Shown here in pieces: positions 36,499 to 40,558 of a stretch of 41,837 nucleotides of DNA. Origin of the DNA: Desulforadius tongensis (GTDB taxonomy: Bacteria; Bacillota; Desulfotomaculia; Desulfotomaculales; Desulfohalotomaculaceae); NCBI RefSeq assembly GCF_016907915.1, contig NZ_JAFBCW010000026.1, positions 1 to 41,837 of the forward strand, read 5' to 3'. Position numbers and translations under genes: made by a program. The first letter of the stretch is position 1. The number at the start of each line of letters is the position of its first letter. The notes below the pieces were generated by a model. It saw nothing but the letters and a program-made list of their open reading frames with translations. It did not search any database and was not told the origin of the DNA.

Positions 36499-36525
36499 AG
36501 CCCTGCGAAAAAAATCCACAGGGCT
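36499..36525 (-). terminator. Terminator of the hydrogenase-chemoreceptor gene
   Basis: Stem AGCCCTG/CAGGGCT (36499-36505 with 36519-36525), followed on the minus strand by TAATTATTTAG, just past the stop of the gene at 36558. Confidence 0.65.
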
Positions 36526-36557: not shown

Positions 36558-38489
36558 TCATCTAGTTATTGTCTTTAAATTTTCTGCAGAGGCATATAAC
36601 TCCTCAGAAGAGGCAGCAATTTGCTCTGCCACCGCCGCCTGGGAATTGGCCAATTCTCTCACCTGCTCCGATTCTTTTGTCAGTTGAACTATCAGCTGAT
36701 TCAACTCCGCTTGTATTGCGGCCACATTCCGGCGGTAATCTTCTACATTTTTAAGCTTCTCGCTGGTATCCTCAGACAGCTTGCCCACTTCTTCCGCTAC
36801 CACGGCAAACCCCCTACCGGCTTCACCTGCCCGGGCTGCTTCAATTTGAGCATTAAAACTGAGCAGCTTGGTCTGCCCGGTAATTTCCGAAATACTGTTG
36901 GTAATTTCTGTGAAATAATCAAAGATTTTTATTATCGAAGCCAGTTTATTCCGCAATTGTTTTATTTCTTCTGCTTGACTTTCCACGTAATTAAGCAGTT
37001 TAGTACTCATTTCGGCATTACTTTGATTACCTGTGGCTATTTCATCAATAACAGTTATTAAGGACTCGGTATTCTCCAGCAGCACTTTATTTGTTTTCTC
37101 GGCCTCATCGCGCATTTTTTGTGCCCATTCTTTTTGATAGATAATGCAGCCCCCCGGGGTGTTTTCACCGTTGTACACCGCCATCGCCCGTTCCCGGCAG
37201 GTTCTGTACCCACAGGCCCTGCAGTTCAGTTCATCCTCTTTGGTAAACTTACCGTCCTGCTCCAATATCGCTTTAATTTCACTTTCAGAGGGGATTTTTT
37301 TATGACAAAGTCTGTTCTCCCATGTTCTGGTAAATTTATTGCTGCTGATCAGTTCTTCCACCGTCTGCACCCACTTTTGAAACTCCGGGGCCTGCACAGT
37401 ATTCTTGACCAGTACCTTATAATCTTTATACTTTCTAAGCAAGCCCTGCCGCTGGGCCTTTTCAAAACGTTTTTGGGTGTAGCCGGCTACAATACCTTTG
37501 GCTTCTAACAGGTCACATTCAACCCCCATGGCTTTACCTACAATACACCCCTCGCAGTACAAAATATCAATCAGGGTAGGATAGCCCTTTAAACTCCCGG
37601 CTTTTTTTCGCCCGGCCATATGGTTTAAAAACTCAATAGTTCTGCTTTCACCTTCTATAATTAAAACATCACTGCCAATGGGATTTATCTGCAGGGCATC
37701 GGAAAACAACTCCAGTGTCTTTGTCAGGCCGCCGGAAATAGGGAAACCGGCACCGTAAAAGGCCTGTATACCGTCAAATTCTGTTTCGTTTAAAACAGCG
37801 GGTGTAATTTTCCTCTCATCTATCAGTTCTATTAATTCTTCAAAGGTTAACACTTCATCAAAGAGCCCCAGCTTTTCATCCAACAATTCTGATTTTTTGG
37901 CAACACAGGGGCTGGCACCAACAATACTAATACTGCCTTGGTTCCAATGCCTGGCCAGCACTGCCTGGGCTGCCATGGGGCTTAATATTGGTGCAAATTC
38001 ATCAATTAGTTCCGGTGTATGTTTTTCAATATAGTTCATCAATGACGGGCATGGGCTGGTAATTACATGGGTATTTTCTTTTCCTTTTGTTTTTATCTGC
38101 TTATCAATATAGTCCAAGTAAACCTTGGTAACCACATCGGCTCCAAAAGCAGATTCGTACACCAGTTTAAATCCCAATTTTTTCAGTGCAGCACAAAACT
38201 GTTCCGGGGTACAGTGATATTTTTTCTCCGCCACTATCACATATGAAGGGGCCAGAACAATGGCACAGCGGTCTCTTTTTAAAAGCTGCTTAACATTTTC
38301 AACACCTTTGATATATTTTTTAGCTCCTTTTGAACAAACAGTTGTACACAGACCGCAGTTAATACAGCTTTCTTTAATAACTTCCCCTACACCATTATTA
38401 AAGGCAATGGATTTGGTTTCACACACCTGCAAACAGGCAGAACATTCCTTACATTTTTCTTTTTCTGTATAGACAATACCATCAATCAC
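36558..38489 (-). CDS. [FeFe]-hydrogenase-like sensor fused to a chemoreceptor signalling domain
   Basis: A soluble 643-aa fusion. Numbered from the GTG at 38489, two [4Fe-4S] ferredoxin motifs use Cys 13/16/19/23 and 42/45/48/52. The hydrogenase H-cluster domain follows (about 75-385), with TSPCPS (Cys147), [10 protein letters not shown] (Cys195) and YCEGC (Cys312/315), so all four cluster ligands exist. The usual TSCCP is changed to TSPCP, losing the proton-transfer Cys. A CRAC-x4-C...GGC [4Fe-4S] module (about 423-448) comes next, then a chemoreceptor signalling hairpin with tip [20 protein letters not shown]. No membrane helix. This suggests sensing of H2 or redox, not H2 turnover. The frame is open to 38561 with a weak ribosome site, and the longer start is possible. 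Confidence 0.88.
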
Positions 38490-38644
38490 TAAAAACCCCG
38501 TCCTCCCCCATTGAAATTCAAAATTTTGAGTTATTTTAGTCATTTTAAAATTAAACACCAATCTCCAAATTCCTACAAAGTTTCTATAAAAACTTTTTAT
38601 TCCTACTATTATACCCTGCTATTCACGGGTTATATAAATTTAAA

Positions 38645-38683
38645 AGCCCACCGGGTTTCACTTACCAGTGTCCGCGGCGGGCT
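38645..38683 (-). terminator. Terminator of the chemoreceptor gene at 38690
   Basis: Arms 38645-38653 and 38675-38683 pair on the minus strand as AGCCCGCCG/CGGTGGGCT (one G-U), followed by TTTAAATTT. Confidence 0.7.
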
Positions 38684-38689
38684 GCAACC

Positions 38690-40558
38690 CTACTTATACT
38701 CGCTATTAATTTGAAACCGAGCAGCCATTTGCTGCAGTTCATTTGTCCACTGGGTTAACGTTTCTACCGCAGAAGCAATTTCCTGCATGGCCGCGGTGGA
38801 TTCTTCTGTTATTCCGGTAGCATTTTGAACGGCAGCGGAAACCTGCTTGGTTCCCGAGGCAATTTCTTCAATTTCATCTGCCAGTATTTTAACTTTGTCA
38901 ATTATCTGTTCAAATGATTGGGCTGTATTATTCACTATTTCTACACCTGATTGCACTTTGTTTACAGTTTCTCTCATCACCTCCCCGGCTTTATTACTTT
39001 CTGCTTGAACACTGCTCAGCAGTTCCTGAATCTCTGTGGTAGATTTGGAAGACATTTCAGCCAGTTTTCTAACTTCCTCCGCCACCACTGCAAAGCCTTT
39101 ACCGTGTTCCCCCGCCCTGGCCGCTTCAATGGCAGCATTCAAGGCCAATAAATTTGTTTGGTCTGCAATTTGAGTGATACTGGAAACAATCTCACCGATT
39201 TTAGCGGTGGTTTTATTTAACCCTTGTATTACAGCGGCAGTGTTGTAGGTTGACCGGCTGATATCGTTCATCTGCTCATGCACTACAGCCATATTTTGCT
39301 GGCCCTTTTCAGCTTCACCAACCGTTTCATCTGCCGATTCCTTTATCGTTTGACTGTTTTGTGCCACCTGTTCCATGGTGGTGGCCACTTCCGTCATAAT
39401 AGACGAAATTTCACTGGCATTGGCAGAAGTCTCCTCGGTGTTGGCAGAAAGCTCTTCCGCAAAAGCCGATAAATTATTGGACTTTTCATTAATACTAAAG
39501 GCCATTTCTTCCAGGTTGGCTTTCATTTTATTCAATGCACTGCTGAGAACACCTATTTCGTCCTTTGAGCTGTTATTCAGCCGTTCTACAGTTAAATTCC
39601 CCTGGGCGATCTCTTCAGCAAATTCAGTTGCTGCCTGTACCTGGCCGGCAATTTTTCTGCTAAAGATAACAGAAATAACAACAGCCACAAGAATGGCAAT
39701 AACCACAACCGTGATGGAAGTCAACCAAAAACGTTCTTTTATCTTCTGAAGGGATGATATATCCTCCTCAATACCCAGCATGCCGATAACTTTTTCACCG
39801 GTGGCATTTTTTAAAGGAATGTAAACCTTCATATAATTCTGTTCCACAGTCCGGACAGTTTCTCCGTTAGATACCCGCTGATAAATGGACTTATCTTCCA
39901 AGGACCGACCGATTTTATCTTTATTTTCTTCGCTGGAAGTACTGATAAGCACATCCCGGTTGTATAAAGCCACGCCAGCGGAAACAGACTCTTCAATTTC
40001 ATTTAAAAAGCGGCTGTCAAGCCCCAATTGAAAAGTACCGATAACCCTTCCCTCTGATTTAACGGGTACCAAAGCCCGCATCGCCAGGCCGCTGCTGCCG
40101 AACTCCAAACCTGCAGCCTCTTTCCCCTGTAGGGATGCCCGGATAGAATCATTGCTGCTCTTGTCATCACCGAACTTGCCGGGGTTGTGGGCCCTAAAAA
40201 ATACTACCCCTTTTTTATCCCCAAATTCAAAAACATCTACCTGGTGTTCTCTTTTTAACCGCTCATAAATTGGTTTGGCCTTTTCCGCTAACAAAGCCCG
40301 GTCATTATTTTTAAATGCTGATGTCAGTTCTTGTTCTTGAACGTACCACCGGGCCAAATTCAGCAATTCATTCGATTTTTCTTCCAATTGACGGTTAGCA
40401 GCTGAAACAGCCCTTTCCAGCTGGGCATTAAGTTCCCGTTCTAACCCGGACTCGGCCTTTTGGTACAGGATAGAAAAAATTATTATCGATGGAATAGCTG
40501 ACATTAATACCATTAAAAACAGGAGTTTATACTTTAGTGATAATCTGTTGTAAGCCAT
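38690..40558 (-). CDS. Methyl-accepting chemotaxis protein with large extracellular Cache-type domain
   Basis: The 622-aa receptor has a first membrane helix (residues 11-31), an extracellular sensor (about 32-278, with the Cache-like [20 protein letters not shown] and [15 protein letters not shown], and [12 protein letters not shown]), a second helix (about 280-301), a HAMP domain (to about 355) and a signalling hairpin with [22 protein letters not shown]. Ligand unknown. GGGGGTTG precedes the ATG. It lies upstream of the hydrogenase-chemoreceptor fusion on the same strand, with a terminator between, so they are neighbours rather than a tight operon. Confidence 0.92.

Follow-up and report, generated by a model that had tools for sequence, protein, structure and literature searches.

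A soluble chemoreceptor with a sensory-type [FeFe]-hydrogenase core in Desulforadius tongensis, a putative receptor for H2

Introduction

Anaerobic life relies on H2 as a central currency, yet the literature searched offered no receptor demonstrated to mediate H2 chemotaxis. Candidates have nevertheless been named among the sensory [FeFe]-hydrogenases. HydDB (2016) defines an [FeFe] group C2, called 'Chemotactic (putative)', which may sense H2 via methyl-accepting chemotaxis proteins (PMC5037454). Matches to this group were met in a study of Clostridium acetogens and were discarded there in validation (PMC9431212), and in a review the sensory role is considered putative (PMC8924675). For chemoreceptor-fused hydrogenases the literature searched yielded no experiment. 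Published traits of HydS-type proteins are the replacement of the proton-relay Cys by Pro, a Ser at the Met353 position and a C-terminal Cx2Cx4Cx16C motif (PMC10055695; PMC8163306), the last of these having been described for both TmHydS and TamHydS (PMC8163306).

The locus considered here lies in a 41,837-nucleotide stretch of DNA from Desulforadius tongensis, the whole of which is referred to as the window. The initial annotation proposed that one of its genes encodes a soluble H2 or redox receptor feeding the CheA pathway, and doubted how well such a chemoreceptor output had been described. That doubt is resolved by the HydDB entry, on account of which the kind has to be regarded as already known since 2016, if as a putative one. 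The fusion is a well-formed member of this known, putative kind, and its most useful features are an altered L3 motif and the swapping of its output domain among relatives.

The gene and its surroundings

The gene is a single uninterrupted open frame on the minus strand (window 36558-38561), which runs for 667 codons from a TTG at 38561 and for 643 codons from an in-frame GTG at 38489 (36558..38489). A Shine-Dalgarno-like GGGGGAGGA (38501..38509, minus strand) stands 11 bases ahead of the GTG, and residues 1-25 of the 667-codon frame are disordered in an AlphaFold2 model, so that the protein probably starts at the GTG and is 643 amino acids long. Residue numbers given here nonetheless refer to the 667-codon frame throughout. 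The claim that all of the domains reside in one polypeptide is borne out by this frame and by the placing of the Pfam domains within the same protein. A frameshift or assembly artefact is ruled out by the recurrence of the same fusion, at 57-67% identity, in relatives from the same order, and in eight relatives in total.

The upstream neighbour (38690..40558, minus strand) is a membrane chemoreceptor with dCache_3, HAMP and MCPsignal domains in Pfam. Between the two genes lies a stem-loop followed by TTTTAAATTT (38645..38683, minus strand; z -2.9), a likely terminator, and a second terminator-like stem-loop is found just past the stop codon of the hydrogenase-like gene (36499..36525, minus strand; z -4.9). 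The positions of these predicted elements suggest that the gene is probably transcribed alone, as its own transcript. A search for a riboswitch in the upstream gap returned no Rfam match in the window except tRNAs, and no further hydrogenase gene was found within the window.

Domain architecture and predicted fold

From its N-terminus the protein has two [4Fe-4S] ferredoxin motifs and an [FeFe]-hydrogenase H-domain, followed by a [4Fe-4S] module of the form Cx2Cx4Cx16C and, last, a short chemoreceptor hairpin, all encoded on the minus strand. The ferredoxin motifs (38322..38465) contain Cys 37/40/43/47 and 66/69/72/76; the ferredoxin Pfam models at residues 30-80 score slightly under their curated cut-offs, but all eight Cys are there and bear out the two clusters originally proposed. 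The H-domain (37536..38264) is matched by PF02906 (Fe_hyd_lg_C) over residues 100-342 with E=1e-36. The C-terminal module (37143..37229), with Cys 447/450/455/472, is recognized both by its motif, as found in HydS proteins, and by the FeS domain PF04060 at residues 445-473 (E=2e-8). The remainder of the protein (36564..37145) is predicted to be helical from 473 to 666, with a hairpin tip near 574, and matches MCPsignal (PF00015) at residues 510-662 (E=7e-20). The absence of a membrane segment, also asserted initially, holds true in a 19-residue hydropathy scan, which reveals no membrane-type hydrophobic segment; the highest value is 1.27, as against 3.15 in the upstream membrane receptor.

The fold was modelled with AlphaFold2 on a 61-row alignment, with a mean pLDDT of 85. 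The first 420 residues of the model match [FeFe]-hydrogenases (CbA5H, Z 38.7; CpI 4xdc, Z 35.0, with about 366 residues aligned), and the hydrogenase fold of the core is thus shown by prediction. In the model the helical stretch of residues 473-666 immediately follows Cys472, which is the final ligand of the C-terminal cluster.

H-cluster motifs and the shortened L3 loop

In L1 (TSPCP, 38046..38060, minus strand) Pro170 occupies the position of the proton-relay Cys, C299 of CpI, and the cluster ligand Cys171 is kept. The change from TSCCP to TSPCP was correctly noted at the outset, and so was its interpretation as a trait expected of a sensor, which is published for HydS-type proteins. It is no novelty, since the relay position of the sensory hydrogenases in HydDB is occupied by Pro in about 10%, by Ala in about 43% and by Cys in 17% (PMC10055695). 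A different change in L1 is seen in a number of group-A-type homologues (L001 and L002 in the D. tongensis genome, together with L126, L130, L139-L141, L143 and L146-L155), which have TSCSP, with Ser in place of the second Cys, a ligand of the [4Fe-4S] part of the H-cluster. In L2 of the fusion protein (ASPCVAKK, 37893..37916, minus strand) Cys219 and Lys222 are kept and Ser217 lies at the Met353 position.

The departure is found in L3 (YCEGC, 37545..37559, minus strand), where Cys336 and Cys339 are spaced C-x2-C and not C-x3-C, the canonical spacing of group A-type enzymes, so that the loop has one residue fewer than that of structurally characterized hydrogenases. The initial annotation counted all four cluster Cys; they are indeed all there (171, 219, 336 and 339), but the spacing of the last two is a caveat that it did not mention. 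Among the eight other Fe_hyd proteins of the genome, C-x3-C is found in seven (L001-L006 and the HydS-type L008), with the eighth, L007, having CCDGC. Among 80 named relatives, however, C-x2-C is found in 53, most of which are histidine-kinase sensors.

The shortened L3 calls the loading of the H-cluster into question. It favours a less likely alternative, in which the hydrogenase fold would carry [4Fe-4S] clusters only, without a [2Fe] subcluster, and what it reports to CheA would be not H2 but the redox state of the cytoplasm, the charge of ferredoxin, O2 or NO. Against this, all four ligand Cys, even the one next to the deletion, fall in columns that do not vary over the 61 rows of the alignment. 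The point has a wider bearing: if a C-x2-C L3 could not hold an H-cluster, many annotated 'sensory hydrogenases' would not sense H2.

Maturases and gene neighbourhoods

The same alternative draws on the distribution of the maturases. HydG was found in 36 of 53 genomes with C-x2-C sensors versus 22 of 27 with C-x3-C sensors (Fisher p=0.29). It is missing in 17 of 50 C-x2-C genomes, of which 16 are also without HydF over the cut-off and 13 without HydE, and a hydrogenase-like protein without maturases has been reported in Desulfitobacterium hafniense (PMC9888536). Yet 16 of these 17 genomes also hold group-A-type hydrogenase genes, so that the maturase gaps are not specific to the C-x2-C sensor, and HydG is likewise missing from 5 of the 27 C-x3-C genomes. 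Co-occurrence with maturases was therefore set aside as uninformative for the presence of an H-cluster. D. tongensis itself has all three maturase genes, with hydG, hydE and hydF adjoining one another (G000:C24), and among nine order-level relatives with a window-type core HydG is found in eight and missing in one incomplete genome. A bolder form of the alternative, likewise unlikely, is that the C-x2-C branch has a non-standard iron-sulfur site assembled in part or entirely independently of HydEFG, with the hydrogenase fold re-used as a chemotactic receptor for redox state or another gas.

Two further observations concern the maturases. Many genomes (L126-L155 and genomes G062-G109), most of them from Ignavibacteria, together with that of Desulfocucumis palustris, combine sensors and group-A-type hydrogenase genes with a lack of above-cut-off HydG and HydF, and mostly of HydE, in the contigs covered, contig gaps being a possible cause. 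HydG matches beside two Lachnospiraceae fusions (L114 and L121) were discounted, as a whole-genome search for L121 gave only a sub-cut-off HydG relative, apparently on the same contig and in the same place.

The neighbourhoods of the sensor genes differ with the output domain. Among named kinase-type loci, 34 of 41 are flanked by a group A hydrogenase gene, often directly adjacent, which ties the sensor family to H2 metabolism; since C-x2-C is common among these kinase sensors, the short L3 fits an H2-linked role. None of the 12 named chemoreceptor-type loci, by contrast, has a group A-type hydrogenase gene within about 6 kb. This difference points to an action of the chemoreceptor type on behaviour and not on a hydrogenase operon; it also leaves the hairpin output without operon support for an H2 function.

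Relatives and the exchange of output domains

A search for the same domain order in other genomes, as the initial annotation had advised, was successful. The same fusion is carried by eight relatives in Desulfotomaculum-type Firmicutes, drawn from order-level relatives and named records; one of these (L014) is without an internal stretch, one (L018) runs into the end of its contig and one (L049) is split. The last, from Desulforamulus aquiferis (L049:1759-3596), is present as two overlapping frames in a draft genome, either a broken gene or a sequencing error.

In other proteins, for example in Desulfocucumis palustris, a core of 61-65% identity is joined not to the hairpin but to HisKA, HATPase and receiver domains. 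A tree of 94 sensor cores groups seven window-type chemoreceptor fusions with support and places six kinase fusions as their sister, all 13 together having an SH-aLRT of 99. With a hairpin on one set of cores and a kinase plus receivers on their closest sisters, outputs have been swapped on one sensor core, providing a natural swap experiment in which a near-identical sensor is coupled to a chemoreceptor hairpin in some species and, in others closely related to them, to a histidine kinase.

A separate group of chemoreceptor fusions, mainly from Lachnospiraceae, has a C-x3-C L3, whereas the window's group has C-x2-C, and the two are separated in the tree by the kinase-fused sisters. Their hairpins can be aligned gap-free; identity to the window hairpin is 26-35% in the other group, compared with 19-29% for the receptors of the D. 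tongensis genome. This gap-free alignment and slightly higher likeness make a single gain followed by a swap to a kinase possible, with two gains the other possible history. Desulfocucumis palustris (L046:5998-12120) has both a kinase-type sensor and, one gene later, a second chemoreceptor-fused hydrogenase resembling the other group.

Other outputs are also encountered. Sensory hydrogenase cores are fused to an NtrC-like sigma-54 activator ending, judged by motif, in L026, L059, L060, L068, L082 and L083, and to GGDEF and HD-type domains in L023, L024 and L007, the latter in the D. tongensis genome (G000:C11, about 54.7-57.1 kb). Pfam matches to GGDEF (E=4e-43) and HD_5 (E=6e-41) make this last type a possible H2-to-cyclic-di-GMP protein; no literature joining [FeFe] hydrogenase, GGDEF and sensory was found. 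At L045 a gene for a GGDEF/HD-fused sensory hydrogenase directly precedes a chemoreceptor-fused one.

The hairpin and the chemotaxis system

The genome encodes chemotaxis partners for a chemoreceptor. Its three CheW-domain matches represent one CheA and two CheW, as the initial annotation had recommended be checked along with hydEFG, and CheA, CheW, CheB, MotA/MotB, flagellin and hook proteins are encoded on G000:C38. The 18 genuine MCPsignal matches correspond to 18 chemoreceptor genes.

It is improbable, in our estimation, that the hairpin is decaying, or is a coiled coil with no part in chemotaxis, and has lost its coupling to CheA. Its score of 75 bits is the lowest of the 18 MCPsignal matches, deviations in its tip include F for L and Q for A, and the split copy in D. 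aquiferis could be viewed in the same light. However, the tip retains the canonical N-x3... pattern in the alignment, and relatives conserve the hairpin at 58-62% identity with both arm length and tip kept. The C-terminal arm of 94 residues from the tip is also in keeping with other soluble receptors of the genome, four of which (L167, L169, L170 and L172) have arms of 87-98 residues, compared with 140-161 in the membrane receptors. That the protein is a slow catalytic hydrogenase with an acquired chemoreceptor tail and H2 turnover as its main job can be largely dismissed, for although TamHydS, which also has no relay Cys, slowly turns over H2 (PMC8163306), the loss of this residue, the conservation of the hairpin and the presence of eight other Fe_hyd proteins in the genome all argue otherwise.

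Proposed mechanism

The reading we favour, and hold with rather better than even confidence, is that the protein is an H2-responsive soluble chemoreceptor that uses a sensory-type [FeFe]-hydrogenase core as its sensor and feeds CheA. What was first proposed stands as regards a soluble sensor on the CheA pathway, in a genome with maturases and chemotaxis genes; the H-cluster and H2 sensing stay putative. The sensor core would be matured by the cell's HydEFG and would bind H2, or report the H2/ferredoxin redox state, at low turnover, with electrons passing from the core to its [4Fe-4S] clusters. A redox change of the C-terminal cluster might then shift the packing of a dimeric hairpin, the junction between Cys472 and helix 473 being the presumed site where it becomes helix movement. 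The hairpin would contact CheA and alter its activity, and so direct swimming toward H2-rich places or away from them. The clade thus represents a soluble candidate for an H2 chemotaxis receptor.

Comparison with known systems

The protein combines features of two established classes. Like sensory [FeFe]-hydrogenases of the HydS-like groups C and D, it has ferredoxin motifs, a Cx2Cx4Cx16C module, ligand Cys and no relay Cys; like methyl-accepting receptors, it has a hairpin with a conserved CheA/CheW-contact tip, in a genome with CheA and CheW.

By domain make-up it is likened to HydDB group C2, with which it shares a sensory-type H-domain linked to methyl-accepting chemotaxis signalling and a proposed role in H2 sensing, although the chemoreceptor fusions found here fall into a C-x3-C and a C-x2-C group. 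Thermotoga maritima HydS (group C, M2f) has the same two ferredoxin clusters, H-domain, Cx2Cx4Cx16C motif and loss of the relay Cys, but ends in a PAS domain where the window protein ends in a chemoreceptor hairpin. Thermoanaerobacter mathranii TamHydS (group D, M2e) shares the Ser at the Met353 position, the C-terminal Cys motif and, if the gap lies between the two L3 Cys, a Leu at the Met497 position; no signalling domain is fused to it, and it is encoded together with a bifurcating hydrogenase. Closest of all in core identity are the histidine-kinase fusions (L015-L017 and L046-L048), which have near-identical L1-L3 motifs and differ in their output, HisKA, HATPase and receiver domains replacing the hairpin.
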